Shown piece by piece: positions 17,724 to 56,814 of a stretch of DNA of 64,000 bases (positions are counted from its first letter, which is position 1; each line of letters opens with the position of its first letter). Location of the stretch: NCBI RefSeq assembly GCF_932294415.1, contig NC_065544.1:35148310-35212309 (forward strand), in the 5' to 3' direction. A model generated the notes under the pieces. That model made no database searches and was not told where the DNA came from. It was given only the letters and a program-made list of their open reading frames with translations. Position numbers and translations under genes: made by a program. The stretch comes from Quercus robur (taxonomy: Eukaryota > Streptophyta > Magnoliopsida > Fagales > Fagaceae).

Positions 17724-17724
17724 T

Positions 17725-18358
17725 CTAATACTATATATAAAAGCAGAAGCATATTCCTGCAATTAAGGAGGTTTTGCCACGTTAGCAAAAAAAACCCCCT
17801 TAAAAACCTACCACACTCCTAGAAAAGGAAGCGCAAAAATAAAAAAATAAAAAAAATTAAAAAAAACCGTGAAAACTTATAAACACCATTCAAGTAGTGC
17901 GAAAACATAAAAACATCAAGCGGCGCAGTCATTCGGCCAAACGCACAAACGCAAATACAAAACCCCTCCCTCCATTGTTTTAAATGTTCATTCTGACTTC
18001 TCCTACCAATTTTCCTTCCCTTTCCTTCCCTTTTTCACTGCTTTATTCATTCTCTACCCTATTACTTTTCTATCGCCATTCCTCTGTGACAACAAACTAT
18101 TCAGAAGTCAAAACCATTCCTTCTCTGCAACAACAGACAATTCAAAAGGTAAGCATGCTTTTTTCTTTTCTTTTTTTCCTTTTTTCTTTTTCTTTTTTTC
18201 TATTCAACTACCATTCCCAATTGCCTAAAACTGCCTACAGATTGTTTTTCCATTTGCTGAATTTAATTTTTTTTTCTTTCTCTTCCATCTTTTTCTCCAA
18301 TTGCAGATTACTAATTCCTTATGCCAGATAAACCCATTAGGTCTTCCACAAAAAGAAT
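17725..18358 (+). other. Helitron 5' non-coding region
   Basis: Starts with the terminal motif, then AAGCAGAAGC and a GTTTTGCCACGTTAGC segment, then long pyrimidine-rich tracts. The 115-codon frame at 17984-18331 is a low-complexity translation of TTTTC runs and is not accepted as a gene. Confidence 0.5.
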
Positions 18359-18701
18359 CTCTCAATCAAGGTTTAAGGTTTGGCTACCTGTTATCCTAAT
18401 TTTCCATTTATTTTTCTTCAATTTATTGAGTTATGTTTTCTTCGATTGTTGTATTGGTTAGATTTTATTTTTGTTTGGCAAATTTTTGTTAGGTTTTCAC
18501 TTCTTTTTTTTTTCGTTTGCCTTTATGTTTTGTCAATTACTGTAGAGTGAACATTTATTGATGATTTTTCTCAAAGTGAAATTATGGTTTCCTTGGAATT
18601 ATTTACTGCATTTTTTTAATAGAAACAAACATATAAATAACAAAGATTTTGTTAAATACTGTTTTGCTGCATTACTCAATCAAGGTTTAAGGTTTGGCTA
18701 C

Positions 18702-19825
18702 TGAAAGGACACATTTTGGATCCCAACCCAAAATGTAAAGGGATATTGGGCCAGTGAGCCTAGTACAATAAATTTGTAGAGAGTGGGTTAGAGAACTAGG
18801 CCCTAATGAGTTGAACAATGGCCAGAATGGGTTTGAAAGATAATCAAACAAAAGCAAGAAGGATTGATCCAAATAAATTCACTCTCGGTACAGTCCGAGG
18901 AGGTAAGTTCTAATATAAATCAGTTGAACGAATTATTAATACAATTTTGATTGCTACCATCCTTTTTCTCTCTATTTTTTGATCTCTCTTCCATGGAGGG
19001 TCTCTTACATTATATAGTTCCATTTTGATGATTTTGACCATACACTTGTTGATCATTTAAACCACTACTTGAGTGCCTGTCCCAACAAACACCCCCTCAG
19101 ACCTTCTGTGAGTTGAGGCAGCCAAGACAGCACTGTTCAGGGGTCTTCTTTACATTAATGTAGCGAGAAAGTTAGCTAGAGAGCATTTAGGGTCCGTTTG
19201 GATACAGCTGAAAACTGAAAACTAAAACTGAAAAATACTATAGCAAAATAATTTTTAAATGTGTAAATAGTACCGTGGGACTCATTTTTAATGAAAAAAT
19301 TGCTGAAAAGTGAAATTTGTGGGTTCGTGAACAGTACACGATGTGCACTAATTGACTGAAAAAAGTTTGAAAAGTCCAACTTTGCGGCTATTGTTCATTG
19401 AACAGTGCATGAACAGTAGCCGCAAGTTTCAAAAACGCGTGAAAAAAAAAAAAAAAAAAAAAAGGAAAAACGCAGACGCAAACTTTTCAGTTTCAGCCAA
19501 ATCCAAACGTAGCCTTAATGCAGTGGTATCAGCTTTCCCTTAAATATTTCTAAGCTCCCATTCTTCCAGTACGTTCATAAGGCATGTCCCTCTCAGTGGC
19601 ATTTTCTGGAAAGTCACTTTGAGTGATAGAACATACATTTGATCCGTGCTTCTTTTATCCGAGGAGACAATCCTCCTTGGACCACCTTTCTCAACCTTAG
19701 CTTACACATTACTCATGAGACTCTGAACTCAACACCCTCACAACTACTTATTCGTCCTCGGACTAATCAACGTCCTCGGCCAAAGCCCAAGGCTCAATAT
19801 ACAATTTTGGGCCCTTATCTCTACA
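18702..19825. mobile_element. Solo LTR, TSD GCTAC
   Basis: The sequence begins TGAAAGGACAC and ends TTATCTCTACA, that is TG...CA, and is flanked by the 5-bp direct repeat GCTAC (18697-18701 and 19826-19830). There is no internal coding region or second LTR, so it is a solo LTR of 1,124 bp left by recombination. Superfamily cannot be set from an LTR alone. A Tourist-like MITE is nested in it. Confidence 0.85.
19190..19514 (+). mobile_element. Tourist-like MITE nested in the solo LTR, TSD TTA
   Basis: The left end GGGTCCGTTTGGAT and reversed right end GGCTACGTTTGGAT are flanked by TTA (19187-19189 and 19515-19517). The sub-terminal arms are AGCTGAAAACTGAAA and, inverted, TGGCTGAAACTGAAA. Inside is the phrase AATAGTACCGTGGGACTC. 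The copy at 41280-41474 is the same family on the other strand. Confidence 0.8.
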
Positions 19826-19830
19826 GCTAC

Positions 19831-21358
19831 CATTTTCCCTAATTTCCCATTTATTTTTTCAATTTCTTGAGCTCTGTTTTGTTCTATTGTTGTATTGATT
19901 ATTATTATTTTTTTTTTTTTGGGGGGTAGATTTTTGTTAGGTTTGAGCTTTTTTTGGTTTGCCCCTAAAATTTGAATTGATTTATGTTTTGTCAACTACA
20001 ACATGTTAAGGAATTATTTCCTTAATATGGTTGTATGGTTTACACACTAATTTTTAGATATACATTTTGTTGAATCGTTCTCAAAAGAAGAAGAAGAAAA
20101 AAACAAAAAACAAAAAAAAAAACCAAACGTTGAACTGCTGGATTACCTTTTAAATGGAAACGACCCTTGATTTTAATAGCCATATTAGTAACATGGATGG
20201 TTTGAAATCTGAATGTTTGGAGAGTACCTTTATTTATAATTTTTTAAAGTAAAATTATTGGATTTTTTTATGTTAATTACTTAGTTTTTGCAGATTGAAC
20301 CGCATTTTCTCTAATCTCCTTTTCTTTTTCTTTTTTTCTTGATATTTAATTTTACTATTATTTCTCTATTGATCTATGTCTATGATTTACTAGAATACTT
20401 TTTTTTTTTTTTTTTTGAGCATCTTACGCTTTCTTTTTGCTTTAAGAATAATTTCTCAAATAATTCAAAAGTGTTCTATTAGACTTGGTATTTGTTAATT
20501 TTTGTACTTCTCAGGCTATTAGGCTCAGTTTATTGGCAGGGTTTTTATTTTTATTTTTATTTTTTATGTTGTTGTTGCTAGCTTTGCTTTTTTTTTTTTA
20601 TTCATTTTTTTTATTGTGTATGTCTTAGTGTTTTGGATTTGAGTACTTATAGATGATTTACTTTTATTTATTTATTTTTATGAATAGTTGATTACATAAT
20701 AATGGGTGAAAAGTTTCATGAATTCCATAACTTGGGTGTGCATATAATCTAATCTATCTCTTTGTGTAATTTCGAAGTAAAGCTTAATAAGTTTGAGAAA
20801 CCTTTGTGTAATTAATCTTGATTCTTGCTGTCGAGGAAATTGTTATCAACTTCCTTACAATGATTATTTCTGACTCTTTTCTGTAGTCTCTCTTACACTA
20901 TTCCCCTATTTTTTCTATCCCTTATTGAATACTTATATACAGAATAGAACATAGAATTATTTTAGTGTTATTAAACTTCAGTTTGGCTTTATTAGACATT
21001 CAGATTTCTTACTGTTTATTTCAAATAAACCTGCCATGTTTTGCTATGTTTTGTGTTTTCAATGACATTTTTATTCTCACGTGCTATTGTAGATTTATCA
21101 TCTCTGCTTTGGCTTGTAAGACCTTTTTTTCTATTCAAGAAGATCTACTAAATTAAATTGAGAGGTTAGTACAACCTAATTTTCCCTTTGTTGCTTTTAA
21201 TTATTTAGATTTGTATCTCTTTATCATTTGTTGATGTTCCAATAAAAAATATTTGGACAAAAATAGTGTAAAAAGATTATTAAATATGTACCCTTTGATT
21301 TTTAAAACAAATGCTAATTTTTTTTTCCACTTTACCATGTTATAATAGTAAAAGAAAA
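19831..21358 (+). other. Helitron leader, no gene seen
   Basis: T-rich DNA with several poly-T and poly-A tracts (about 19910, 20095, 20400). Probably the untranslated leader or an intron of the Helitron Rep gene. The 63-codon frame at 20965 shows no similarity. Confidence 0.4.
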
Positions 21359-23226
21359 AATGGAAAATACAAGATTAGCACGACAAAAAAGACGGATGAT
21401 AATGTTTAAGAAGCGATCCAAAAGAAAACAATATGAAAGAAAATACTTTACAAAATAAAGTTACCGAAGCTAGGAAATACAAAAAAAATAGACATTGCTT
21501 GAAAAAAACAAAAAAAAAAAGGGGGGAGAGATAGTACGGTGGTCAATCATGAAAATTCTTCGTTACATTTACCTGGTACAAGTACGAACCTTTTTGAGAC
21601 AAAAGATTCGTTAGATATTGATGTTAATATTTTCCATTCCTTTGGAGAAAATGAGTCGAACTTAACTAATGATATTGAACCTTGGAATTTTGGCCCACCT
21701 TCTTATGTATGTAACCATTGTGGTGCAGTATTATGGTATGAAGAAAGAAGTGTAAAATCTAAGAGGCCTAGAAATCCAAAATTTTCTGTGTTGTATGGAG
21801 GGTAAGGTGAAGTTGCCTTTGCTTAAAAAAAAAACACCTCTTCTTCTTAATGAGCTATTAGATCCTCTTAGTGTACAACGATCTAAAACATTCAGAACTC
21901 AAATAAGGAGTTATAATGCAATGTTTGCAATGACATCCATAGGTGGCAAGGTGGATAATAAAGTTAACGATGGTAGAGGCCCTTACATTTTCAGACTTAA
22001 TGGTCAAACCCACCATAGGATTGGAACACTTCTTCCTAATAATGGTGAGGACCCACAATTTGCACAGCTATATTTCTATGATACTAAAAATGAAGTCCAA
22101 TATAGAATGAATGCCTTTGGTAGAAATCTTGTTAATAAAGACCTTGATCCATCTATTGTTGACACATTGGTCCAAATGTTTGATGAGTCAAACAGTTTGG
22201 TGAAGATATTTTGTATGTCTAGAGATCATTTCATACAACGTGATATCCATTGTTTAAGATTAAGACTTATTGGCTCACGAACTACAGATGGAAGAGAGTT
22301 CAATCTTCCTACATGTTCTGAAATTGCTACAATCATTGTTGGCGATATTGGTGTTGATAATGCATACCATGATATTATTGTGGAGTTAAAAGGAGGGAAA
22401 CATAGGATCTATGAGTTGCATCCATCGTACATGGCATTGCAATATCCTCTTTTATTTCCATATGGTGAGGATGGCTTTTTGCTTGGCATTTTGTGCAGAA
22501 ATATAGATGAGATCAGATCTGACACAAATGACTTCGATACAATGAGAGAGTATTATGCATTCAGATTGCAAGAGTGTAATGGTGAGGGACATACTTTGAT
22601 ATCTGGTGGTCAATTATTTCAACAATTTGATGTAGATGCCTATACATGTATTGAGGTAATAAGACTTATGCGGGTGAAGAATAACCAAGAAAAGTTGAGG
22701 ATTGAACTGTATAATGGATTGAAGGATGCAATTATGAGGGCTGATACTACCCCTGCATCTGCTAGAAAAAGATTTGTTTTACCTTCAAGCTTCACAGGAA
22801 GTCCAAGGTATATGATTGAAAATTACCAAGATGCAATGGAGATCTGTAGATGGGCTGGCTATCCAAATCTGTTTATTACCTTCGCATGCAATGCAAAATG
22901 GCCAGAGATTGAGCTTTTCATGTCTAGGAAACCTGGGCAGAAAGTAGAAGACCAACCTAATGTGGTTTTGAGAGTATTCAAGATAAAACTTGATCAACTT
23001 TTAAATGATTTAAAGTATGGTTGACACTTTAGAAGAGTGATTGCAGGTATACTAAACTACACACCTTTAATATTTTTTTTTTGCTTTCTCCTTTTTGATC
23101 TTCATAATTACTCTAAATTAATATAATTAGCTTGATATTTTGGTACCAATTGTCTACACCACTGAATATCAAAAGAAAGGCCTACCTCATGCACACATAT
23201 TGCTTTTTTTACATAATGATGACAAA
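21359..23226 (+). pseudogene. Helitron Rep/helicase, N-terminal part with HUH motif (broken)
   Basis: A Lys/Arg-rich start (ATG at 21359, MENTRLARQKRRM) runs into stops. Similarity is clear from about 21539. EPWNFGPPSYVCNHCGAVLW (about 21679-21738) is a zinc-knuckle-like segment. The frame is lost near 21785, where a 2-nt deletion shifts it, and MEGKVKLP resumes at 21795. The Helitron_like_N domain follows, with the landmarks NDGRGPYIFRLNGQTHHRIG, FAQLYFYD and LHPSYMALQYPLLFPYGEDG. A TGA (23022) interrupts YG-HFRRVIAG, then about 100 bp of non-coding DNA precedes YTTEYQKKGLPHAHILLFLH, which carries the HUH motif (HAH) of the rolling-circle nuclease. The reading stops at the hAT insertion at 23227. 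It would nick and join DNA in Helitron transposition; this copy cannot make the protein. Confidence 0.9.
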
Positions 23227-23247
23227 CAGGGACGAAGCTAGGACTTA

Positions 23248-23757
23248 GGGCACGTTTGGTACACTGTAATGATTATTACATGGGAATAGGAATAAGTATT
23301 ACAAGGAATACATTAAATTAGAATGTAATAAGTATTACTATTCATTAGTTTGGTGACCATTTAAGAATAGAATCCTGAATATGCATCCACAATTTAGTAG
23401 AGTATAAAAAGAATGTGTAATTAAATCATTTTTAAGTCAAATTTCCTAAAATACACTTATTTTAGGATGTTCAAAATAGTGCTAATAATTAACAAGAAGG
23501 AAAATTTATTTTCTTTCCTTTTGAAGATGTGACAACTAATGGCTTTTTAGGAAAAAAATTTAAAAAGTTATTACATAAGGTAAAGGAATAGATATTCAGT
23601 ACTTTTGATAAGGAATAATTATTCCTCATTTTGAAGAATAGTTATTCATAAGGAATAACTATTCATTGTAATAAAAACATAACCAAACAACCGAATAGTT
23701 ATGCCATAGGAATATCTATTACATTATAGTGTCTATTACAGTCTACCAAACATGCCC
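23248..23757. mobile_element. Tourist-like MITE nested in the hAT element, TSD TTA
   Basis: The left end GGGCACGTTTGGTACACTGT and reversed right end GGGCATGTTTGGTAGACTGT match in 18 of 20 bases, flanked by TTA (23245-23247 and 23758-23760). The interior repeats GGAATA-TATTAC words in both orientations. It sits 21 bp inside the hAT left end. Confidence 0.85.
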
Positions 23758-23830
23758 TTAGAGTTAGGGGGGGCAAAAGTATAAACAATTTTTTTTTTTT
23801 TTGAAACTCGAAGTAAGCATTCATTTAGAA

Positions 23831-24010
23831 GAGAAATGCTATGTCCACAATATTTTCACTACATTTTCACAACAAATCGTATGTGGTAAGTTATTATTGG
23901 TTGTTATAAGTGAGCAAAAAAGTAATTTAAGTTGTGGATTTAAATTAGAACCAATAATAACTTACCGCATGTGATTTGTTGTGAAAATATTGTGGACGTA
24001 GCATTTCTTA
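23831..24010. mobile_element. Palindromic MITE, 8-bp TSD ATTTAGAA
   Basis: The arms AGAAATGCTATGTCCACAAT and the reversed right end AGAAATGCTACGTCCACAAT differ at one base and continue into TTTTCAC. The flanks ATTTAGAA (23823-23830 and 24011-24018) are identical. The 180-bp element could fold into a long hairpin. A diverged relative is at 59509-59676 and a weaker one at 40170-40332. Confidence 0.85.
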
Positions 24011-24018
24011 ATTTAGAA

Positions 24019-25490
24019 AGTTAAGCTTTTTTTTTTTACTTTTTTTTTTTTTGGGTGTCTTGTGTGTTGTCAAATGTGTGTGGGTGTTCACTTAGACTAG
24101 TTAGAATTGGCTTAGGAATTTTTTTTTTAATTTAATTTTATTTTTTGTTTGTGTCTTGCGTGGGTTTGATTTAAGGTGTCGTTTGGCCGGGCTTAAGTTT
24201 GTTATTGGTAAATTTTTTTGTTAAGCTTGTTAAATTTATTTCAAATTTTAGATCAATAAAATTTTTTATAACCTTTAAAAAGATCAATAATATTGTTGAG
24301 AGGACAAAGTGCAAATTTATTGAAACAAAAATTGCTAAAATTAATACACACACATATATACTGAAAGTTCAAATAGTGTAAAAACACCCTTGAACGTTTA
24401 GACTCCCAATTTACAAATTAACCAATTCAAGCTTTATGTCAAACAACTATTGTGCGGAAAATGAACAAAAGCTATAAAACAGAATTGGTAAACAATCTAA
24501 GCCAATTTAAAATCACAACCCACAGCAGATAATAAAAGGCAAAGATAAAAGGGAAGGAAGATGCAAACACAAGGACAACACACGATGTGTTATCGAAGAG
24601 GAAACCGAAGCCCTCGGCGTAAAACCTCTCTGTCGCCCTCCAAGCGGTAAGTAATCCACTAGAAAATGTAGTTGGGATACATGGATAGCAATAGACCCTC
24701 CAAGCCTAATCTACCCAGTGCACCTAAGCCTTCCAAGCTTCTTGCTCCAACGAGGTTGCCCCGAACCTATTTCTTTTCTAGCTTCCCGGATTCCGCTACT
24801 TGACCATAGTATCAACCAATGTAGATTGGTTCCTTCATAACTGCTTCCCAGAACACCAAACAGCCCTCTCACAGTAATGGATATGGTGAGAAAAGGTTTT
24901 GGTAAAATGCCTCTCAAAGATTTGACAATGGAAAGGAAGAGAGTTGAGGAATTTGAAGAGACTCTTATGTAAAGATTGTAGATGAATCAATCTTGTTTCA
25001 CTCTAGGGTTTCTCTCTCAAAATTCCCTTTGGAAGCCCTCTTTCATTTGTGGGTATAAGGGATATTTATACTGGGGTGAGAAAAGAATGTGTAACGTCAG
25101 GTTTTTCAAAACAGGGGTAGCTCGCGGCTTGGACTTGCAGCTTGACTGAGTCGCGAGTTCCAGCCGCACGATAACAAAACAGCCAGTTGTCCTATTTTGT
25201 CCTATAGTACTCCAGCTAGCATGATGCTTTAGCTTCTGGCATGCTTGGCACGTGTGCTGCTTCTGGCGGCTTGCAGCCGCGAGTCACCTGCGAGATCCAG
25301 CCACGGGACTCTGTTTTCTTGCACACTCTTGAGCATTCAACACTCTATCTCACTCACTACCCTTACAACAAACCCACCTAAATATAGGGTTACTAATTGC
25401 TGAAATACAAGCAAATTTGGCATAGAATAAAGCCAACAAGATGGTTGATTAAATTCAACCTTACATATACTAAAAAAACTTTGAAAAAAT
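24019..25490. other. Interior of the hAT element, no gene seen
   Basis: AT-rich to about 24520. From 24530 to 25330 it is GC-richer, with phrases such as TCCAAGCGGTAAGTAATCC and repeated words around CGCGAGTTCCAGCCGC / GCAGCCGCGAGTCACC (about 25130-25310). This piece has no open frame with protein similarity. It resembles dispersed non-coding repeat DNA; origin not recognised. Confidence 0.4.
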
Positions 25491-25536
25491 TTAGGGGGCC
25501 ACTGCCCCCCCAAGTCCAACTATAGTTCCGTCACTG

Positions 25537-26718
25537 ATGACAAGCATCCTATAGCAACAGAAATTAACAAGATAATCTCAGCAAAAATTCCAAATTTGAA
25601 TAAGTAACCTCTAGCTTATGATGCTGTCAAACAATACATGGTCCATGGTCTTTGTAGATCTATAAATTTTGTATGATTGAGAACAAATGTGTCAAGCACT
25701 TTCCTAAGAAATTTTGTTTTCAAACCACTGTTAATAATGATGGTTTCCCAATATATAGAAGAAGGAATAATGGAATACTTGTTGAAAGAAATGGAGTTAG
25801 ACTCGATAATTGATTTATAGTTCCTCACAATATTGACTTATTGGTGAAATCTCAAGCCCACATAAATGTCAAGTGATGTAATTGTTCAAGGTCTATCAAA
25901 TACTTATTCAAATACATAACGAAGGGACCTAATCGTGCAATTTTGATTCTTGAAGAAAATTTACATGTTGATGCTTTTACTAGAATGCAAAATATGACAG
26001 ATACGGATGAAGTTAAGGAATACTTAAATTGAAGATATGTGTTTGCCATAGAGGCATGCTGGAGGATATTTGAGTTTGAAATCCACTATCGACAGCCTGC
26101 TATTCAAAGACTTAGTTTCCATATCGAAAATGAACAACCGGTTGTTTTAAGGATACTCAGTATATAGATAACGTTGTGGATGGACCAGATATTAGAAAAA
26201 GTAAATTTATAGAATGGATGAAAGCAAATGAATTGTATGAAGAAGCAAGGGAATTGACTTATTTTGAATTTTCAACAAAATGGGTTTGGCATAAAAGAGA
26301 CAAGGAATGGAGATTGAAGAAGTTTGGAAGATGTATAGGGAGTATATACTATGCTCATCCTAAAAATGGAGAACGTTTTTATTTACGGATGATATTAAAT
26401 GTTGTTAAAGGAGCTCGATCCTTTAAAGAAATAAGAACTATAAATAATGTAGTAAATTTAGATTTCATATCAGCATGTTATGTGCTTGGTTTGCTTAATG
26501 ATGACAAAGAGTGGCATGAAGCTTTAAATCATGCATCACATTGGGCTTTAGGAAAACAACTTTGTGAGCTTTTTGTCACAATACTGATTTTTTGTGAGGT
26601 TTCTGACCCCTATAAATTATGGATTTCGAATTGGTGGCTATTATTTGAGGACATTCTTCATCGTCAAAGAGCAGTTTTACGCTATGACAATCTACATCTT
26701 GATGACTTCCTGTTGTAG
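25537..26718 (+). pseudogene. Helitron Rep/helicase, middle part (broken)
   Basis: Directly after the hAT, HPIATEINKIISAKIPN and PLAYDAVKQYMVHG continue the Rep domain. The stretch to 26170 is recognisable only in pieces because stops and frameshifts are dense. From 26176 a 180-codon frame is clean and carries the linker domain seen between the nuclease and helicase of Helitrons (ERFYLRMILNVVKGARSF, ISACYVLGLLNDDKEWHEAL). It ends at a TAG (26716-26718) that interrupts LDDFLL-NYALSDIEQIL. The same frame then continues into the helicase part. Confidence 0.85.
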
Positions 26719-28265
26719 AACTATGCACTTAGTGATATAGAACAAATTTTGATAAAAAATGGAAGGTCTTTGCAAGAATTTGAAACAATACCATATTCAA
26801 ACACATTGCTTTTGAGACAATATAACAATAGAATATTACAAGAAGAATTGGATTATGATAGAGATTCTTTGGCAGCAGAACATATTGAACTTTTTAATGG
26901 TCTTAATTTTGATCAAAAGAATATATATGATGCAGTAATTGATTTTGTTTTGAGAAATAAAGGTGACTTCTTATTTGTATATGGACATGGAGGAATAGGA
27001 AGACTTATCTTTGGAAAACCATTATATGCTGATTGCGTTTAGAAGGAAAAATTGTCATTGCAATTGCATCATCTGGAACTGCTGCATTATTGTTGCCAGG
27101 AGGAAGAACGACTCATTCGAGATTTCAAATGCCAATAATTGTAATAGACCATTCAACTTGCAGAATTAAACAAGTTTCACAAATTGCAGAAGTTATGATG
27201 AAAGCAAGTCTTATAATTTGGGATGAAGCTCCTATGGCACACCAAAACTGTTTTGAAGCTGTTGATTGTTCACTAAGTGATATTTTTCGTTTTACTGGCA
27301 GTGACAGTGGAGATAAACGTTTTGGAGGAAAAACAGTTGTTCTTAGTGGTGATTTTAGACAAATATTACCAGTGGTAGCTAAAGGAAAAAGAGAACAAAT
27401 AGTTGAGGCATCAATTAACAAGCCTTCATTATGGAACAATTGTAGAGTTTTCATTCTGACAAAAAATATGAGGCTCACAAAAAACCCAGGTGATATTGCT
27501 GCAAGGGAATTTACTGAATGGATATTGAAAATTGGTGATGGTGAACTAAATAACATTGAAAGTGAAGCATTGATTGAAATATTACATGAATTATTAATTC
27601 AACCTAGTACTCATCCTTTCAATAATATCATGAATGCTACCTACCCTGACTTTCATATTAAATTCAATGATTCAAAGTATTTAGAAGAGAGGGGAATTTT
27701 AGCTCCAACAAATGAAGTCGTTGAAGACATAAAAGATTACATGATTGACCTTATTAATGTTGATGAAGAAACATATCTTAGTGCAAATTCAATATGTAAA
27801 GCTTCAACCAACATTCTAGATCAAGATGTCATGTATCCAAGAGAGTTTCTAAATTCATTGAAGTTCCTTGGTATTCCAAACCATAAACTCAAGTTGAAAG
27901 TAGGACTACCAATAATGCTACTTCGAAATTTAAACCAAAGTGTTGGACTTTGCAATGGTACTAGACTTAGTCACTCAATTATCAAAATGGATTTTAGAAG
28001 CCCAAATAATATCAGGATCTCATGTTGGAGATAAAGTATTTATTCCAAGAATAGTTTTGCTCCCTTTTGAATCTAAATAGCCTTTTGTACTAAAGAGAAG
28101 ACAGTTTCCACTATCAGTTTGCTTTGCTATGACAATTAATAAAAGCTAAGGTCAATCTTTGAAATGCGTTGGACTTTCTTTGGACAAACCATTTTTTAGT
28201 CATGGATAGTTATATGTTGCCATCTCCAAAGTTACAAGTAGAAATGGCCTTAGATTGTCACTAAT
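26719..28265 (+). pseudogene. Helitron PIF1-type helicase domain (broken)
   Basis: LNFDQKNIYDAVIDF leads into the Walker A region VYGHGGIGR, where a one-base loss near 27000 shifts the frame out of the expected GKT. The original reading returns in another frame, with a TGA, before LRLEGKIVIAIASSGTAALL (27036 on). Walker B is IIWDEAPM, followed by VVLSGDFRQILPV and LTKNMRL. A second shift (about 2 nt lost) near 27969 separates LCNGTRL from QLSKWILEAQIISGSHVGDK. The C-terminus (FPLSVCFAMTINKS, LYVAISKVTSRNG) carries three stops, at SK-PF, NKS-GQS and SHG-LYVA. The 5'-3' helicase would unwind DNA during transposition; this copy is dead. Confidence 0.92.
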
Positions 28266-28339
28266 GTTGCAAACAGTAGATTTTACTCCATAATTATATA
28301 TAAATTTTATTGATGTTTAAATTGTGCAGATATTAGAGA

Positions 28340-31300: not shown

Positions 31301-31467
31301 CAACAACATACATTTTGTTTGATAAATGAGCTGAAAAAATTATATCTAAGACTGTAAAAGAACTTACAGAGACGCAAGAAGAGGTAATTTCATATATAAA
31401 TGTCAACATAGATCTTTATTATCTGAGAGTTGAAGTTTTGATACTTTCTTACCAATGCTACGCATGT

Positions 31468-31509
<42 letters not shown>

Positions 31510-32501: not shown

Positions 32502-32668
32502 AGTCTAATGTATCTCAATGTATTTTATAAATAACATACTCTCTAGTTTCCTTTGGAAACCCTAGAGGTGAAAAAAGTCGCTAGTAATAGCAGTACGGTT
32601 GCCGTCAGGCATATTTTCTCTCTGCGTAAGCGGTAGAATCGATTTATGTTTCTTCCAAAAGCTTGAAG

Positions 32669-34260
32669 ATGGAGGAGATTATAGAGAGATGTGCAGGTTT
32701 ACATCTGTCATTGAAGGAAGATGCTGAAGTTATAATCCACAAACCAGTACCAGAGGAGGGCTTAGTCCTTCTAGGGAAGTTCTATACAAAGAGGAGAGTT
32801 AACTTAGAGTCTGTTGCAAGGGTGCTGAAATCGGTGTGGAAAACAGTGGCTAATTTCGAGGTCAGCGATCTGGGTGAGAATAAGGTCATGTTTCTTTTTC
32901 AAAAAAAGGATGATATGGATAGAGTGCTTTTCCTTTGCCCGTGGTCTTTTGATAAATACTTATTAGTCCTTCATAAACTGGTGTATGGGGAGGCGGTGCA
33001 AGATATCAAGTTCGACAGGACTCCGTTTTGGATCCAAATACATGGGCTGCCTACAATGTGTCAAACGAAGACAGTGGGAATGAGTATCGGAGCTACTCTA
33101 GGGGAAGTGGAGAAGGTGGATGCAAATGGGAGTGGATTTTGCCTGGGAAGTTTTCTGCGAATAAGGGTGCAAATGGAGATCACTAAGCCGTTGTGTCGTG
33201 GGCGGAAGTTTAGGCTAGGCAAGCATGGGATGTAATGGGTAGAATTCAAGTACGAGAGGCTCCCGATTTTCTACTACTTGTGTGGGATGATTGATCATGA
33301 TGAAAGAGATTGTCTGCAGGGTTTTCGAAGCAAGGAAACGCCAAGGCTAGAAGAGAAGCAATTTGGTCCGTGGCTGCGTGCGAATCCGGACAAACACCAA
33401 AAAACCTTACTAATCACTGCCAGAAAGTATGGAGAAAGTAGAAATGGGGAAGTCAAACCTGAAACAATGGCTCGAAGACGGAATATAGAACCTGCAAAGG
33501 AAGGCGTGATTACTAGAAATGACGGTTTGGGTAAGGCGGAGAGAACGGTGGAGGCCCAGGCTGACGTGGTGAACGTGGACAACACTTCAGATCATCTGAA
33601 AATTAAAATCCCGAATATCTCGCTAAGTTCAAATTTTGAAGCGGAACTCCAGGCCATTGATGCCGCAATTATGGGAGACGTTTCAGGTGTAAATGATGAG
33701 CCAATAAAGGAACTAATAATGGGAAGGGAGGAGATCACGTTGACTCAGAAGGATGCCAGGCTGGACAGTAAGGACCAGAACCGTATGAACGGGCCAAATC
33801 TCCAAGGCCCACAGCCAAAAGGAGTTATTGGGCCTCAGGAGCAACTTATGGAGATGAATGAAAGACCGGGTGTGGATTTGGGCTTGACTCCATCCAGTAT
33901 TAGTTTTAAAATGGGGCCTACTTCTCCAAAATTAACAAAATCTCTGAAAATAAAGAAAGGCACTGAAGGTGGCCAAAAGAAAATAAATGAAACAGAGGTG
34001 GCGTGGAAACGAGGAAGGATTTGGACAGGGAGTGCATGCAGTCTCAAGGAGTTGATAGTGGTATTGAGAGGTCCAAGGAAGTCGATCAAACAGAGATGGG
34101 ATTAAAGAGGAGAATACAATCATCGTCGCATGAACTGGAGAATTTTGATGTTTCTAGGAAAAGAGCAAAAATGGAGGGAGAGGTCAGGGAGTTTGGTAAA
34201 CTGTTAGCTCACCATTTGGGATCAGCGGAGGCTGGCAACCAGCCCCGCCGGACACAATGA
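32669..34260 (+). pseudogene. LINE ORF1: DUF4283 and CCHC-type zinc knuckle protein (broken)
   Basis: The start is ATG at 32669 (MEEIIERCAGLHLS). Residues to about 180 are a DUF4283 domain (KSVWKTVANFEVSDLGENKV, PWSFDKYLLVLHKL, FDRTPFWIQIHGLP). A TAA at 33233 interrupts HGM-WVEFKYERLP in the same frame. Next comes a zinc-knuckle segment YYLCGMIDHDERDC, in which the expected first Cys appears as Tyr. The rest is a low-similarity linker to about 34005, where the frame shifts to the one ending SRKRAKMEG...QPRRTQ at 34260. The TGA overlaps the ATG of ORF2 by four bases. ORF1 proteins bind the element's RNA. Confidence 0.88.
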
Positions 34261-37200
34261 GTGCCATCAGTTGGAACTGTAGGGGGCTTGGGAACCCCCT
34301 AACAGTTAAAGCACTCCAAAAGGTAGTTTTGGAAAAAGACCCCACCTTAGTTTTCCTAATGGAAACTAAGTTTAAAGTCAGTGAGATGGACGGAATTAAA
34401 AGAAAAATAGAAAGACAGGAAGGTTTGGTGGTTCCAAGTGTTAACCGTGGAGGAGGCTTAGCTCTTTTATGGAAAAGAACAGTGAAAGTTGATGTGTTGA
34501 CTTACTCCCCTAGACACATTGACGTAATAGTCTTTGAAGAATAGGGGACAAGAAAATGGCGCTTTACTGATTTCTACGGACATCCGGAGACAGGGAAGAG
34601 AGAGGAGTCATGGAAGTTGTTGGAAAGTCTTAGCAATAGAAGCAATTTGCCATGGATATGTATGAGAGATTATAATGATGTTATGTATGCCAAAGAAAAA
34701 GAGGGTGGTGGGGTGAGACCTGAAGGTCAAATGCGAAATTTCCAAGAAGCAATCAATAGAAGCCGATTGAGGGACTTGGGTTATGTGGGGTCAGATTACA
34801 CATGGAGTAGAAGACTAGGTAGTCGTGGTTGGGTGCGTGAATGGTTGGATAGAGCTTTGGTGTCAACAGATTGGGCAACGATGTTCCCGTCGGTGAAGCT
34901 TTATCATCTATCCAACTCAGTCTCAGATCATAGTATTCTTGTTCTCAAGGAAGCTCGGGTTCCTCAGTGGCAATGGAAACAATCGAAGCTTTTTCATTTT
35001 GAATCCATGTGGCTTAAGGATAGGAGATGCAACGAGGTGGTAGAGGCTACTTGGGAGAGAGGGCAACATAGTCTTTAACGGTGGACTTTAGAATCTTGTT
35101 TGGAGGAGTGCCAAAGTTCACTTCAGTCATGGAATAAGCATACTTTTGGCAATGTTGGAAAGCAGATTGCTGATCTTCAGAATAAAATCCAAGGGCTTGA
35201 GTCAATGAACTGTAATGGTATTGACTTAGAATCACTCCATGCATTGAAAATGGAGCTCAATAAGTGGCTGGGCATCGAAGAAGAGATGTGGCACCAAAGA
35301 AGTCGCAACAATTGGTTAAAGGCAAGAGACAAGAATACAACTTTCTTCCATACCAAAGCTTCAAACCGGTACCAAAAGAATACTATTAGTAAAATGTTGG
35401 ACTCTAATAATGTTTGGTACGAGGAGGCAGACCAGATTGGACAGATTTTTATTAACTATTTTGAACATTTATTCACTTCCTCACAGCCAAAGGTAGATCA
35501 AGAGATGATTGAGGCAGTGCACCCTAAAGTCACAGATAGGATGAACTCTACTCTTTCCCAAGAGTTCCATGCCATGGAGGTGGAAAAAGCACTAAAACAA
35601 ATGCATCCTTTAACGGCGCCAGGCTCGGACGGTATGCCCCCCTTATTTTATCAACATTTTTGGCCAACTATAAAATCCATTGTTATTCAAACTGTTCTTA
35701 CCTTTTTAAATAATGGCATAGCTCCCCCAAAATTTCATGATACACACATTGTGCTTATCCCCAAAATTAAGAACCCGGAGAAAGTCACTGATTATAGACC
35801 TATTTCTTTATGTAATGTGGCTTATAAAATTGCTTCCAAAGTGGTGGCGAACAGGTTGAAAATGGTGATGCAGGATATAATAGGGGAGAACCAAAGTGCT
35901 TTTGTGGCGGAACGCCTTATCACAGACAATGTACTGGTGGCACAAGAGCTGATGAATCATATCAGTAGGAAGAAAAGGGGTAAAGGTGGAGAGATGTCTG
36001 TGAAGTTGGACATGAGTAAGGCATACGACCGAGTCGAATGGGAATGTTTGCAACAGATGATGCAAAAGCTTGGTTTTCAGGAGAAGTGGATTGGTATTGT
36101 GATGAGGTGTGTGACGTCGGTGAAGTATGCAGTACGTATTAATGGACAACCTTGCGGCCAAATCCAGCCAACTCGAGGGCTGAGCCAAGGCAACCCCCTA
36201 TCGCCTTATCTCTTCCTTATTTGCGCCGAGGGGTTGTCGGCTCTTCTGCATCGTGCTACCCAAAGAAGTGCCATTAAGAGAGTGGCTGCATCATCTAGAG
36301 GTCCTAGAGTATCCCATCTCTTTTTTGCCGATGATAGTTTAGTGTTTGGAAGGGCATCAGTGAGTGAAGCCACAGAAATCCAGAGGATTCTCAAAGTCTA
36401 TGAACTCTCCTTTGGAAAACAACTGAATTGCTCCAAAACCTCCCTCTTTTTCAGCCCAAATACGGATGATGGAACAAAGGAAAGGGTGAAAAACATGTTC
36501 GGTGCCCAAGTAATAAAGCCACATGAGTCCTATCTCGGTTTGCCATCACTTGTGGGTAGGTCAAAAAATAATACCTTCGCTCAGCTCAAGCAGAAAGTGG
36601 CAAACAAAGTTTCGGGTTGGAAAGAAAAATTACTCACACCTGCAGGAAAGGAGATATTGATTAAATCAGTAGCCCAAGCTGTGCCATCCTATACGATGAG
36701 TTGTTTCCTATTACCTAAGAAATTATGTAAGGAGCTTACGGGCATGATCAGGCAGTTTTGGTGGGGACAGGTGAAGAACGAAAAGAAACTTGCGTGGTTA
36801 AGTTGGGACAAAATGTGCTTGCCGAAGGAAAGAGGGGGATTAGGTTTCAGAGACCTAAAATGCTTCAACTTGGCTCTTTTGGCGAAACAGGGGTGGCGGC
36901 TTCAAACCAATCCTACCTCACTATTTAGTTGAGTATATAAGGCTAAATACTTCCCACAGTGCAGTTTTCTTGAGGCAAAGATGGGTCCGAATCCTTCATA
37001 TGCGTGGCGAAGCTTAATGGCGGCATAGGGAGTTGTCCGGAGAGGCAAGAGGTGGCAGGTGGGAAACGGAAATAAAATCAGAGTGTGGCAAGACAAGTGG
37101 ATTCCAAGGCCAAGTACGTATAGGTTGGTAACACCAGAGAAGTCAAACTCGGAGAATGCTCTGGTTTGTGAACTCATAAACAAAGCAACTCATGAGTGGA

Positions 37201-38357
37201 ACATGGATAGGTTGCAGGAGTGGTTTTTACCCGAAGACAGAGAGGTTATAATGAGCATCCCGTTGAGTACAAATGAGGCCTGTGATAGACTAATTTGGGC
37301 TGAAAACAGAAGTGGCAAGTTCACGGTTAAAAGTGCCTATGCTCTGGCACTTGAGGAACAGAGTCATCTCAGCATGGTGGATTGCTCCAATGGCTCGGTT
37401 CGAAGGAAGTTATGGAAGACTATTTGGCAATTAAAGCTGCCTCAGAAACTGAAACACTTTGCATGGAAAGCGAGTTGTGACATTCTCGCCACAAAAAGGA
37501 GTTTGGCAATGAGGAAAATCGTACCGAACGGAGTATGTGATCTTTGTGGACAAGATGAGGAGACGGTGACACATTTACTCTGGTTTTGCAGTCACGCTAT
37601 AGAGGTATAGACCGCAAGCAAAATGGTTTTACCATTTGAGATTGCTAAATACTGGAGCTTTTTGGTCGTGGTTGAACACCTAAAGCGGTGCAAAGAAACT
37701 TGGCCTAGTCTCCTAGAACGTGTCATCGTAATCTGCTGGGGCATTTGGAAGAACAGGAACGAGCTTCGGACCGGGGGGAAAGGGAAGACGGGCAGGACAA
37801 TATTTAGGACGGCCATGAACTTGGTGGATGAGTTTTGCACGGCAAATGAACCAAAAGAAGAACCAGTGGCTGACGTTGCACCAACGGTTTCATGGCAACC
37901 TCCAAGCGATGGATGCTACAAAGTCAACACGGATGGGGTGGTCTTCTCAAACAGTAAACAAGCAGAGGCAGGTGTCATTATCAGGGATGGAGCTGGGGAA
38001 GTTGTTGCTGCCTTAAGCAAGAAATGGAATTATCCTTTGGGTGCTATAGAAGCGGAAGCGAAAGCAGTGGAAGCCGATATCATCTTTGCTCATGACGTGG
38101 GAATTCGAGATGCTGAAGTTGAGACCGACTCGTTGGAGATTTTTAATGCAATGCGAGGCCACTCAGCTCCGCCGTCATCGGTGGTGAACGTGGTAACCGG
38201 AATTCTGAACCAAGCCTCTTTATTCAGAAAGTGGAAGTTTACTCACATTAAAAGACAGGGAAATGTCCCTGCTCATGTCTTAGCCCAACATGCCAAGAAT
38301 GTTGAGGATTATTTAGCCTGGGTGAAGGATTTAGCCCAACTATTCATTTTTTTATAA
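34257..38357 (+). pseudogene. LINE ORF2: endonuclease, reverse transcriptase, zf-RVT, RNase H (five stops)
   Basis: One frame of about 1,366 codons, interrupted by stops at 34542 (TAG), 35076 (TAA), 36930 (TGA), 37026 (TAG) and 37608 (TAG). Domains in order: an apurinic-type endonuclease (ISWNCRGLGNP at residue 4, METK, and SDHSIL near 223); a reverse transcriptase ([40 protein letters not shown] and the catalytic FFADDSLVF near 690); a zf-RVT domain (CDLCGQDEETVTHLLWFC near 1095); and RNase H with acidic residues in KVNTDGV, AIEAEAKAVEAD and VETDSLEIF. It would nick target DNA and copy its RNA into it. Removing the five stops alone would leave an uninterrupted frame, so inactivation looks recent. 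Confidence 0.93.
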
Positions 38358-38380
38358 GATAATTGATTCAAATTTCAAAA

Positions 38381-40036
38381 ATAATAATTATTTACAGGAT
38401 TTATCTCATACATTTTACTACATCCCCTTATTATAATTAAACCAATGAGATTTGACATCTAATTAAATTTTGTTTTAAAAATATCAAAATTAATTGATCA
38501 TAATCAAATGGATTCTCACATAATTAACAAGTAGGCATCTTAATTGTTAAAACTTGATATGGCTTGATCTTTTAATTTGGTGGTCCAATTTTGCAATCAA
38601 TAGGTCATTTGATCATTATGAGCTTTGGTGTATCTTGGAATTATGCTCTTGCTCAGCTAAAAATTCAAAATGATGTTTTGATCATTTCATGGTTAAAATC
38701 ACGTGTTTTTCTCTTTATGACCACTTATATTTACACTCTCCATTAGAATTATGTGACATCATTTATATAAATAAATAAATAAATAAAGTAGAATAATTAG
38801 TTATATATACAAACACAATATAATCCATTGTGACTATCATAATTATCAAATTTCATACTATGGAAGAAATAAAACAGGTAATGAAGTTTATATTTTGTAG
38901 AACTTACCCATGCATCAAGTTTGTTATAGTTTCCATTCAATAACAATTACAGATATATTTTTGTTTCTCTCTTAATAATAACAATGGGACTTGTTAAGAA
39001 ACACGTACAATTTATAATTGGCCGTTTTGAACGTATTATGTGGATCTGATGATATAATGAGATCTCTTGTCGTTAAATAAGAAATTTAGATTTAATTCAT
39101 GCATACATTACAAAGAAACTTATTGAAATCTTAACTCTGATGCTAAAAAAAATCATCATAGATCAAACACCAAGGGAAAGAGCGGAGGTAAATTGCATAT
39201 CAACCCATTATTTATTTTGCTTTTTACTCTAATTCTCGTAATAGAATGTAAATTGTTCAAAGAAAAAAAAAGAACATAGATGGCTAACAAAGCAAGGAGA
39301 AGAAACAAACTTAAAAATCCACTATCATTCTTGTAATGAAGCTCAGCAGTCCATAAAAGATTAAAAATGTGAATATATGGTCATGGGCTTGGTGGGTTTA
39401 ATCTGTTGCTTACTTTCAAGCAAGCAGGCTCAAAGGCTTACAGATTATGAGCCCAAATACAATTATCCAGTACACCTCTACAGTTCCAGGCCTTGCAAAA
39501 ACCATCAGAATAAAATTGGACAATGACCCCGAAAAGTTCAAAGTACTTTTCAAAATCTGATTGTAGAACAACCTGCTTAAGATTTGTGAATGGCATATTG
39601 ACATAGTGGTCCTTAGGAACCCATTCTCAATCATAATGGTCATGTTGGTGGATTTTAATATTAATATGAATGAATTAATGAATAATTTTTAATCATAAGT
39701 GGGCCAATTGAACGAGAAGAATTGACAGATTTATGGGTAAACGAGGCTCTATTGAAGAGTTTGTAATTTGCTAAAAAAAATTGATTCTCACATGAGAGAG
39801 ACTCCTTATTAATTTATAGTTATTACTTTTATAAATATATATATATATATATATATATAACTAAGAGAAAATCTAATTGGAATCCTCAAATAATGTCTTT
39901 AATTTCTTCTTAATTTTGTTGTCAAATGAATTATTTGGCACAACATATAAGGAGTTAATTTTTAATGTATGAATTTACACCATTGTGAGAACCAAATGAT
40001 CCAACATGTTAAAACTTGAAGAAAAAGATATAAAAA
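38381..40036. other. Probable Helitron 3' region, no gene seen
   Basis: AT-rich DNA with a TAAA tract at about 38768-38788 and a (TA)n run at 39834-39860. Small open frames have no similarity. Assignment to the Helitron rests only on the proposed 3' terminus at 41724. Confidence 0.4.
39834..39860. repeat. (AT)n microsatellite
   Basis: About 13 AT units. Confidence 0.9.
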
Positions 40037-40169
40037 CAGGGGCGGCAATGCACACAGCCCAGGTGTTCAAATGAACCCCTGACCTGCCCAAAAAAAATTA
40101 TATATAAAAATTTGAATGCTTTGACTCTATTTTTTTTTTTTTTTTTTTTTTTTTAAACCCAGCTGAAAT

Positions 40170-40332
40170 TAACTTTTATGATCATTTTAGTGCTATTTTT
40201 ACAACAAAAGTTAAGTGGTAAGTTATAATTAATTTTTATCTAGACAACTAACATAACTTTTTTACCTACCTTTAACAACTTGCCACCTAAATTTGTTGTG
40301 AAAGTTTTGTATCAATAGCACTACTCTTAAAA
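40170..40332. repeat. Decayed palindromic MITE related to the one at 23831
   Basis: The arms ATTTTTACAACAAAAGTTAA then GTGGTAAGTTA, and reversed CTTTCACAACAAATTTAGGT then GGCAAGTTG, pair with mismatches. They resemble the CACAACAAATC / GGTAAGTTATTATTGG words of the element at 23831-24010. Confidence 0.45.
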
Positions 40333-40378
40333 TATTTAATTTTATAAGAAAATAAAGTTTCAAAATTTTGCTCACTTA

Positions 40379-40403
40379 TTAATAATAATAATAATAATAA
40401 TAA
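40379..40403. repeat. (AAT)n microsatellite
   Basis: About eight AAT units. Confidence 0.9.
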
Positions 40404-40502
40404 CCTTCTCTCTTAGACTTTGGCTTACTTTGGCATTGATAGCGGAATGAAGTTGTTTTACTTGCATTTTTCTTCTTCATAAGCAAAACATTACACCAGC
40501 AA

Positions 40503-41000
40503 TACAACCAACAGATCTATATTTACATCTATGTTTTATTAAATTTATGATTAGTTATTTGAAAATAATGTATGATTAGTTATTTGATTCTATTTGTTTA
40601 TGCATTCAATAGTTGTTGTCTTACCTATCTTTAAACTATTAATCATTTTATTATACTATTCGAAAATATAGTGATACAACCAATAGATCTATATCTACAT
40701 CTATGTTTTATTAAATGTATGATTAGTTATTTAATTCTATTTGTTTATGCATTCAATTGTTGTTGTCTTACTGATCTTTAAATTATTAATAATTTTTTTA
40801 GACTATTGTAAAATATAGTGATGCAACCAACAGATCTATATCTACATATGTGTTTCATTAAATGTGTGATTAGTTATTTGACAAGAATGTATGATTAGTT
40901 ATTTAATTCTATTTGTGTATGCATTCAATAGTTGTTGTCTTACCGATCTTTAAAGTTTAAACTATTTATAATTTTTTTAGACTATTGTAAAATATAGTTG
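40503..41000 (+). repeat. Three tandem repeats of about 150-175 bp
   Basis: Each copy starts near CAACCAACAGATCTATAT (about 40505, 40678, 40826) and goes on with TGATTAGTTATTTGA, TTTGTTTATGCATTCAAT and GTTGTTGTCTTAC, ending near TATTGTAAAATATAG. The middle copy lacks a short internal duplication of the TGTATGATTAGTTATTTG word present in copies 1 and 3. Confidence 0.85.
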
Positions 41001-41279
41001 TATTGTATACTATATTGTATGGAAGTGTATATAAAGAAAAAAAAATTAGTCATTTTATTTTTTACTTCCCTACTCACTATAAATTCCTAGCTCCGCCCAT
41101 ACTAGCCCCTAAGAATTTGTGGTCATCTATTGGAGTATGTGGTCTCAATAGAGTTCTATTCTTTATGAAGGAAGCCTATGTGAGCTATTGGTGTTTCTGA
41201 AATTAATTTAATAATTCTCTTAACAATTTTATTTACCTTTTATTATGCTTTTAGTTTTTTTTTTTTTTAGACAAAAAAA

Positions 41280-41474
41280 ACACTGTTCATGCACTGTTCA
41301 TACACTATTCGCGCACTATTTACGGAACCCATAACCACTTTATTTAGGAAAAAATATTAAAAATTGGTCCCACGGTGCTATTTACACATTTAAAAATTAT
41401 TTTGCTATAGTGTTTTTAGTTTTCAATTTCCAGTTTTTAGTTTCAGCAAAAATAAGTTATATTCAAACAGACCC
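41280..41474 (-). mobile_element. Truncated Tourist-like MITE (same family as 19190-19514)
   Basis: Read on the minus strand it begins GGGTCTGTTTGAATATAAC after a TTA (41475-41477), then contains CTATAGCAAAATAATTTTTA and ACCGTGGGACCAA, matching the copy at 19190. The distal end is missing: the sequence runs into TGTTCATGCACTG words and a T tract with no terminal repeat. Confidence 0.75.
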
Positions 41475-41697
41475 TTAGTGGAATTATTGGTATGATTTAT
41501 TTTTTAAAATAGAGTTCTCTAAATTAAGATATAATTTATTGAAACTTATTAATTAAATATGTAGATCAATATTTTTATTGAACTTTAATTTCCTATGTAT
41601 TTTGTAGTGTTCATTTTAATTTTCTTAATTTTGATGTCAAATAAGTCATTCACTCATCTAAGTAAATCATCTCATCATCACTATTATTGAATATTTT

Positions 41698-41724
41698 TGT
41701 GCGTAAACACACATTACAACCTAG
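41698..41724 (+). other. Proposed Helitron 3' terminus: hairpin and CTAG
   Basis: The stem TGTGCGT / ACACACA has a 2-nt loop and one mismatch that a single CpG-to-CpA change explains. It ends 7 nt before CTAG at 41721-41724, which is followed by T. Hairpin, spacer and CTRR|T are the known Helitron 3' signature. Confidence 0.6.
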
Positions 41725-56104: not shown

Positions 56105-56570
56105 ATGGAATGGAAAGATTTTATTTATAAACAATGGAATTACAAAGAGAGGCTAATAGATTCCTCTTTAATTACAGAGTCAAAACAAGGAGGGCCACAT
56201 GCTAAATCAAAAAAGTCACATACATTGTTCTTTAAAGACCATTTGGCCAAAGCATGAATTGCACCATTCGCCACCTTGGGAACCCAATAAACAAAGTAGT
56301 TTAGGAATTGTTATAGTAATGTTACATCCCAAGACCACATGGAAAGATTTTATTAACAGACAATGGAATTACAAAGAGAGATCGATGGATTCCTCTCTGA
56401 TTACTGATTCAAAACAAGGAGGGACACATGCTAAATCAAAAGAGCCATATATACATTAATCTTTAAGAACCATTTGGGCAAAGCATGAAATGCAACATTC
56501 GCCACCCTAAGAACCCAATAAACAAAGTAGTTTGGGAACTGTGACAGTAAATGTTAGCATGTCACAAGGC
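56105..56570 (-). pseudogene. Two tandem copies of an L1 LINE 3' end
   Basis: Two units of about 227 bp (about 56105-56330 and 56331-56570) repeat in tandem. On the minus strand each codes in pieces for the C-terminal end of plant LINE RNase H (AHALAKWSLKNN-like: first unit AKWSLKNNVCDFFDLACGPP, then SVIKEESISLCNSIVYK), followed by short 3' UTR. The second unit is more diverged and has stops. The tandem arrangement suggests a local duplication after insertion. Confidence 0.7.
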
Positions 56571-56814
56571 CACATGGAAGATAATTATGTAGCAACTGTT
56601 GAAGTTTGAATTTGAATAATAAATTAGCAATGGTAGATTGGATTGTTATTGTTTCAAATTTTTATTTGATAGGAGTTAGTTCCTATTTGTTTGGATAGTA
56701 TCAAATTATGAGTATTATTTATGTACTGTGAAGGAAGGTATGGATCAGAAGCAGACAATTAACCCATAATGTTTATTTTCTCTCTCAAGTTTAGGAGATT
56801 TGTTATCTCGGATT

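Follow-up and report, generated by a model that had tools for sequence, protein, structure and literature searches.

Positions 17724-41724 of a 64,000-nt stretch of Quercus robur DNA (hereafter the window; contig NC_065544.1) start and finish like a Helitron and hold several other transposable elements in between. The question raised by this locus is whether it represents one 24-kb Helitron, as a first-pass annotation had proposed, or an assemblage whose two ends have different origins. As discussed below, the region is very probably a composite of degraded elements and not a single transposon (Table 1), and the 24-kb one-element reading is not supported. Much of the nest is real and its insertion order is mostly legible, while the far end at 41724, at first taken as the terminus of the 24-kb element, seems to derive from another one. 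The region is thus an ordinary plant-chromosome transposon graveyard plus one instructive chimera.

Table 1. Features of the window between 17724 and 41724
Feature	Position	Strand	Evidence
5′ portion of a putatively RPA-bearing plant Helitron, own 3′ end missing	17724-32542	+	terminus, leader, Rep, Pif1, RPA-like gene; paralogues
Leader tandem duplication, first unit and start of second	18361-18701	+	second unit 18675-18701, resumes at 19826 past the LTR
Solo LTR	18702-19825		TG...CA; 5-bp TSD GCTAC
MITE inside LTR	19190-19514		3-bp TSD TTA
Rep N-terminal ORF, Helitron_like_N (PF14214)	21756-23021	+	E 9.6e-36; stop codon 23022-23024
Non-autonomous hAT in Rep	23227-25536		8-bp TSD ATGACAAA/ATGACAAG, one mismatch
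MITE inside hAT	23248-23757		TSD TTA; window only
Independent dispersed repeat inside hAT	24361-25465		C38 copy without surrounding hAT sequence
Pif1-like helicase ORF	27033-28031	+	PIF1 (PF05970) E 1.9e-63; Pif1_2B (PF21530) E 2.1e-22
RPA-like gene remnant (exons)	29349-32501 (about 29.3-32.5 kb)	+	sub-threshold profile matches
L1-type LINE, 5′ end present, 3′ tail and poly(A) missing	32543-38329	+	domains, copies; 5′ boundary 32539-32543
Putative rearrangement junction	38329-38340		LINE break; 10-nt local repeat
DNA without Helitron-family match	38330-41170		old dispersed repeat, sparse-match stretch, hAT-like element
Old dispersed repeat	38337-38712		genome matches
Second hAT-like element	about 40032-41115		dispersed repeat copies; edges approximate
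3′ terminal part of another Helitron family (type A; hairpin weak; CTAG followed by T)	41180-41724	+	repeated terminus
MITE inside 41180-41724	ends 41474		nested in the type A 3′ end

Genes and 5′ end of the Helitron

The first-pass annotation reported Rep, helicase and RPA sequences in the order expected of a Helitron. The combination of a Rep (Helitron_like_N) and a Pif1-type helicase was indeed found, with Rep broken by a stop codon and by the hAT, and the RPA-like gene gave only sub-threshold profile matches. One of seven ORFs tested in the window matched DUF223 at 20.9 bits, the cut-off being 24.6, and Rep_fac-A_C was found in one ORF each of the paralogues L047 (E 4e-4) and L051 (E 1e-4), that is, in two of ten ORFs tried and again sub-threshold; a PDB search with one ORF of the RPA region returned no match. 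Both the RPA-like gene and membership of the RPA-bearing (PHRPA) group are putative, read from DUF223 and Rep_fac-A_C matches that lie under the curated cut-offs.

Position 17724 is a repeated 5′ terminus, with A followed by TCTAATACTATATATAAAAGC in the window (41 rows among the matches listed, one of them the window itself). In 14 other copies that were read, the alignments start within the first five bases, TC stands at the start in 9 and A precedes in 12, and the left flanks differ from each other, apart from those of three pairs that are duplicates (L026/L027, L028/L030 and L029/L032). The segment 17724-32542 thus has the 5′ TC at an A/T target that is typical of Helitrons. The leader duplication recurs in all three paralogues examined for it (L075, L079 and L088), which suggests that it is old and was present before the solo LTR inserted. 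Reading further upstream of these three leaders did not reveal the 5′ terminus (0/3), the match of L075 reaching back only to 17823, so that the link between terminus and body comes from the window and from one other place, by position. Upstream of its leader, L079 carries a reversed LTR-like piece.

Order of the nested insertions

The solo LTR has TG...CA ends, a target site duplication (TSD), family copies that share these ends (mostly matching q10-18 to q1134-1136) and an empty site, as LTR-free joins occur in L075 and L088. LTR copies elsewhere are contiguous across the position of the inner MITE, which is presumably Tourist-like and of which separate copies match about q495-833. The order proposed earlier, from leader duplication to solo LTR to MITE, is accordingly borne out by element-free paralogues for both the LTR and the MITE. 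The hAT in Rep has its 8-bp TSD (one mismatch), short TIRs and two paralogous sites that lack it, L092 (C5:8.20 Mb) and L093 (C5:78.4 Mb); its insertion into Rep before the arrival of the MITE also holds, the first step from these paralogues and the MITE step from the window. Thus, the nest yields relative insertion orders that are supported by paralogues, which is routine for plant genomes. Of the elements listed in the first-pass annotation, the solo LTR, the hAT in Rep, the MITEs and the L1 LINE are all present, and the supposed second hAT is a hAT-like dispersed repeat, for which no 8-bp TSD was seen by eye in the window sequence.

The LINE and the junction at 38329

The LINE, which we take to be of the plant L1 type, contains a reverse transcriptase (RVT_1, E 1.5e-30) together with zf-RVT, RVT_3, DUF4283 and zf-CCHC_4 domains; among NCBIfam models, it matched a group II intron reverse transcriptase far under the cut-off of that model. 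The element is cut at 38329, and its last ~85 bp, the poly(A) and the right TSD are absent. In the nearest copy, C37, identity is 98% across 102 bp on the 5′ side; on the 3′ side, two stretches of 130 and 325 bp are 93% and 91% identical, respectively. C37 and four of the five other LINE copies examined do not stop at the break but extend through an AATAAA motif and a tail rich in A or AT. A TSD search returned one 8-mer, located away from the LINE ends, and nothing at the ends themselves. The missing tail would be best read as a 3′ loss that followed insertion.

Directly after the junction, 10 nt (TTAGCCCAAC) repeat LINE sequence lying about 50 bp upstream. Such a match was equalled by 23 of 3000 random 16-mers compared with the LINE stretch, and at 104 of 3000 random places compared with their own upstream 200 bp; this repeat may be end-joining filler, as a suggestive sign only. 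None of the 40 matches listed, other than the window itself, spans 38329/38330. An assembly misjoin at this point would account for the lack of a second copy among these matches, but the junction falls within a single contig of an assembly that has 42 contigs and the short local repeat is of the end-joining kind, suggestive as that is; a misjoin is extremely unlikely.

The DNA that follows the junction, up to 41170, does not match the Helitron family. Between about 38906 and 39827 there are few genome matches, none of them to the Helitron family, except for a weak repeat at 39054-39172. The terminus at 41724 is itself repeated (44 rows among the matches listed). When the ends of this type were placed by searching up to 12 bases around the expected position for CTAG, CTAA or TTAG, CTAG or CTAA was found in 12 of 14 other copies and T came next in 12 of the 13 placed; the edge is not fully sharp, as 8 of 14 alignments extend 7-32 bases beyond it into AT-rich flank.

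Which 3′ terminus belongs to the RPA Helitron

The TC and hairpin-CTAG termini proposed for the 24-kb element are each a genuine repeated terminus, and what failed is the claim that together they delimit a single Helitron, the end after the LINE being the true one. All ten RPA paralogues read continue beyond 32542 with a shared tail that is absent from the window, and their downstream 1.5 kb gave no match to window positions 32543-41724. Three of the paralogues (L047, L049 and L050) are nearly identical to each other. Two of five that were read 4 kb further, on C1 and C39, finish in a different hairpin-CTAG terminus (CCCGYGCRTTGC...GTTAAACACTAG, then T), and the profile of the 41724 terminus was found in none of the five. 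Copies of the Rep/helicase element thus end elsewhere, an outcome that the first-pass annotation had itself named as refuting its reading. This family terminus is multi-copy (best 40 of 194 candidates) and does not occur in the window within the fuzzy limits used. The fuzzy scan, run for both types of 3′ end, is stricter than the profile, and of 14 other known loci of the 41724 type it recovered only 4; it also matched L037, L067 and L069 (both strands), and these were excluded from the RPA-Helitron ends.

Co-location was then scored as a terminus lying downstream within 30 kb on the same strand, among the copies listed. The five copy lists represent the best 40 of 61, 97, 212, 217 and 194 candidates. 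For the 5′ end, 41 rows minus the window left 40 places; for the leader, 39 of 77 rows were kept after dropping the window and weaker second pieces; for RPA, 37 later-exon places of 93 rows, without the window, second pieces, places with earlier exons only and a LINE copy; for the 41724 type, 39, the 44 rows minus the window and four weak second pieces, with a nearby second piece at C39:10835062 kept; all 40 family termini were kept, one being the place of the query itself. The family terminus follows the leader at 7 of 39 places (three via a 160-bp leader piece only), RPA at 4 of 37 (one of them inevitably, as C1:49.02 Mb supplied the query) and the 5′ terminus at 1 of 40. The 41724-type terminus follows none of the 39 leader, 37 RPA or 40 5′-terminus places listed, contrary to the expectation that other Helitron copies should share both ends, and the reversed-side controls gave 0 in all six comparisons. 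At C1:50656215-50680740 the 5′ terminus, RPA and the family 3′ terminus occur in order over 24.5 kb, as judged by position, the intervening sequence being unread. A pattern search with two CTAGT motifs gave no information, its 531 forward and 594 reverse hits being outnumbered by those of the reversed-pattern controls (1038 and 1076).

The segment 17724-32542 therefore carries no hairpin and CTRR/T terminus of its own and is a truncated Helitron; the copy is, by what is known of Helitrons, dead, because its Rep is broken and its own terminator is gone. That 17724-41724 is nonetheless a single Helitron into which the LINE and others simply inserted, with 41724 as native 3′ end, could be argued from two repeated Helitron-type termini, with A preceding the first and T following the second. 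Against it stand the lack of the paralogues' post-RPA tail on both sides of the LINE, the LINE with neither 3′ tail nor TSD, the other terminus in which relatives finish and the stretch at about 38906-39827; this reading is very improbable. The outer ends (A then TC, CTAG then T) do resemble a proper Helitron insertion and are the counterpoint to a composite, under which the A and T would be a coincidence, such ends being common (at least 44 rows). An empty site had also been predicted at an orthologous locus; the flanks joined across 17723/41725 matched, in the same genome, only the window, which gives direct insertion-site evidence to neither reading.

A probable history of the locus

From the observed boundaries, missing pieces, element-free paralogues and different 3′ end of the relatives, a history of the composite can be proposed. 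An RPA-bearing plant Helitron would have inserted at an A/T site (17723/17724) with the leader duplication, common to its relatives, already aboard. A retrotransposon would have entered the leader and shrunk to a solo LTR, in which a MITE then landed; separately, a non-autonomous hAT would have landed in Rep, with more repeats entering it afterwards. An L1-type LINE would also have inserted, near 32540. Most likely, a rearrangement (in the simplest case a deletion) would afterwards have removed the final ~85 bp of the LINE together with its poly(A) and right TSD, as well as the Helitron tail carrying its own hairpin-CTAG, and end joining would have connected the LINE at 38329 to DNA in which the 3′ terminus of another Helitron family lies 3.4 kb downstream. 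A single deletion as the cause, and the end joining, are what we infer from these losses.

Alternatively, the Helitron might have read through its own terminator before the LINE arrived and transposed with flanking DNA up to a foreign terminator, the LINE and the deletion coming later inside the unit. Bypass with flank transduction is described for Helraiser (PMC4778049), and it would fit the correct A and T that flank the unit, but it requires an extra event, neither a second junction copy (among the matches listed) nor an empty site was found, and no leader or RPA place listed has a 41724-type terminus downstream. This course of events is improbable. Whether by bypass or by deletion, the composite might also be a new and still mobilisable chimeric Helitron, its 5′ start intact and its terminator swapped for that of another family, which we regard as quite improbable. 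If so, a 24-kb unit with a nearly complete LINE could be mobilised by a helper.

Comparison with known elements

Under the composite reading, a structure-based Helitron finder that relies on a TC start, a hairpin-CTAG end, A/T flanks and Rep-helicase could call here a false 24-kb element with a captured LINE. Such a false call arises when the two ends derive from different families, which is a warning for automatic annotation, and the check that exposes it, co-location of family termini within the same genome, is cheap.

Like plant L1-type LINEs, the LINE of the window has DUF4283/zf-CCHC_4 and RVT_1/zf-RVT/RVT_3 in like order. LINEs are usually 5′-truncated, whereas here the situation is reversed, with the 5′ end kept and the 3′ end gone. 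The Helitron shares with the RPA-bearing plant Helitrons, such as the rice Mothra sister family (PMC4683698), the TC start, the A/T target and the set of Rep, helicase and a putative RPA-like gene, and its relatives end in hairpin-CTAG; unlike these elements, the window copy has been interrupted by other insertions and lacks a 3′ end of its own. Helraiser (Helibat) is likewise a Rep-helicase Helitron with a 5′ TC and a 3′ hairpin-CTAG, and it is reported to read through to a downstream terminator and to transduce the flanking DNA (PMC4778049). In contrast, the foreign terminator of the oak locus would come most simply from a later rearrangement and not from read-through.

Structure of the Helitron Body and Its Insertions

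Position 17724 is a repeated Helitron-type 5' terminus. A genome search with 17724-17900 returned at least 41 rows, and the alignments begin within the first five bases in all 14 other copies read, with a TC start in nine, a preceding A in 12 and left flanks that are dissimilar save for three duplicate pairs. The Rep and helicase domains follow (see table), and the gene downstream of the helicase is likely RPA-like, judging from sub-threshold scores: DUF223 matched weakly in a downstream ORF, one of seven window ORFs tried, and Rep_fac-A_C matched weakly in one ORF each of two paralogues (two of ten ORFs tried). In four paralogues (L040-L043), about 75 bp of the RPA region (32086-32158) are missing, and 32085 adjoins 32159-32164. 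The body is probably an unremarkable RPA-bearing plant Helitron, and this copy looks dead: a stop codon closes its Rep ORF, and a hAT insertion divides Rep.

Features of the window (contig C40:35148310-35212309; genome of 786 Mb in 42 contigs)
Feature	Position	Remarks
Front and body of plant Helitron, probably RPA-bearing	17724-32542	
Helitron_like_N	21756-23021	Pfam
Stop codon of Rep ORF	23022-23024	
hAT in Rep	23227-25536	TSD ATGACAAA/ATGACAAG
PIF1 and Pif1 2B domain	27033-28031	Pfam
L1-type LINE	32543-38329	
Old dispersed repeat	first after junction	68-77% identity
Stretch with few genome matches	after old dispersed repeat	no match does not prove rarity
Second hAT-like element	after few-match stretch, before 41724-type terminus	three tandem copies of a ~160-bp unit, 78-86% alike (40502-40998)
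41724-type terminus	final part after junction	
Tandem duplication	56110-56579	~235 bp, 84% identity

The first-pass annotation had read an order of events from the sequence (leader duplication, LTR, MITE in the LTR; hAT in Rep, MITE in the hAT), and this order proved right on the evidence of paralogues, but for the MITE in the hAT, which is read from the window only. The tandem leader duplication is present in three leader paralogues (L075, L079 and L088), none of which has the LTR at the window's site; the duplication is therefore old and predates the LTR insertion. In L075 and L088, window 18701 joins 19826 with a 5-base overlap, the TSD, and in L079 the join is less clean and a reversed LTR-like piece lies further upstream. 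Among the matches listed, most LTR copies elsewhere match 18702-19825 and are contiguous over the MITE position apart from a 3-base overlap (e.g., C41:14172232-14172708 and 14172706-14173018), and standalone MITE copies match about positions 495-833 of the LTR query, so the MITE inserted into the LTR. Two Rep paralogues on contig C5 (8.20 and 78.4 Mb) are uninterrupted through the hAT site. The MITE inside the hAT has a TTA duplication, and another internal repeat (24361-25465) also occurs on C38, there without surrounding hAT sequence. No relative order can be given for the leader steps versus the Rep steps.

Two Types of 3' Terminus

The claim of a single 24-kb element whose true end follows the LINE is not supported: the relatives keep a tail that the window lacks. 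In a genome search with 31750-32640, the better-matching Helitron copies listed end at 32542, and one C37 copy matches solely from 32539 onward, the LINE start. Beyond 32542, all ten RPA paralogues read (L047, L049 and L050 being nearly identical) have a similar tail starting with TACAAGCAAG or a close variant, and 1.5 kb of this sequence gave no match to window 32543-41724. Two of the five paralogues read 4 kb further (on C1 and C39) end in a different, family terminus, CCCGYGCRTTGC...GTTAAACACTAG followed by T; a profile of the window's 41724-type end matched none of these five, and a fuzzy scan found, within its limits, no CCCGYGCRTTGC...GTTAAACACTAG end in the window.

Both termini are repeated. 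The 41724 type gave at least 44 rows, with CTAG or CTAA at the end of 12 of 14 other copies (a placement aided by the motif itself) and eight of the 14 alignments extending 7-32 bases beyond it; for the family terminus, the best 40 of 194 candidates were scored. Pairing was judged by position, as a terminus downstream within 30 kb. The places listed comprise 39 leaders, 37 RPA matches and 40 5' ends, and the family terminus follows seven, four and one of them, respectively; three of the seven leader pairings depend on a 160-bp leader piece alone, and one of the four RPA pairings arises by construction. The 41724 type follows none in any of these three sets, and reversed-order controls gave 0 in all six comparisons. 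At C1:50656215-50680740, known by position alone, a copy of the window's 5' terminus is followed by RPA and then by the family 3' terminus over 24.5 kb.

There is a dispersed repeat just beyond the right-hand terminus in the window (42065-42380); on C1, a copy with 86-88% identity lies some 30 bp beyond the Helitron's 3' end. Head-to-tail Helitrons also occur: at L037 (about 1476-1510) and in the C39 copy (L070, minus strand, about 2601), a 3' end (CCCG, hairpin, CTAG) is directly followed, on the same strand, by a further Helitron-type 5' terminus that lacks its first few bases.

Truncation of the LINE and Proposed History

Homology to the LINE stops at 38329. In the nearest copy among the matches listed (C37), the matched ends are 5,793 bp apart versus 5,791 in the window, and the copy extends about 85 bp further, a stretch that includes AATAAA and poly(A). 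Of the six LINE copies printed, L063 loses similarity within some ten bases of the break; the other five run beyond it into a similar tail, where AATAAA is followed by A- or AT-rich sequence. Target-primed insertion begins at the 3' end, yet here the 5' end is present and the 3' end absent, so that the LINE most simply lost its 3' end after insertion. A TSD search around the window LINE found none, and the 38329 junction is crossed by none of the 39 other rows listed in the LINE-junction search. The ten bases immediately past the junction also occur in the LINE 50 bp upstream. This suggests end joining with templated filler, although 23 of 3000 random 16-mers match equally well.

The boundaries, the missing pieces and the relatives' different terminus are observed, and the simplest history, which we favor, includes a deletion. 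A Helitron with a duplicated leader would have received the solo LTR with its MITE and the hAT with its inserts, and then, in the order we infer, the LINE in its tail. Finally, what was probably one deletion, closed by end joining, would have taken out both the LINE tail and the end of the Helitron, joining the remnant to DNA in which another Helitron's 3' end was already present. Less probably, the Helitron's own terminator may have been bypassed earlier, as documented for Helraiser (PMC4778049). The flanks joined as a query found no empty site in the genome.

Plant genomes routinely contain nested transposons, solo LTRs and rearranged LINEs, and the point of interest is the false pairing of termini. 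PMC4683698 states as Helitron hallmarks a TC start, a CTRR end, a hairpin and a target between A and T, and reports some plant Helitrons with an RPA gene; the Helitron body described here probably belongs to this kind.
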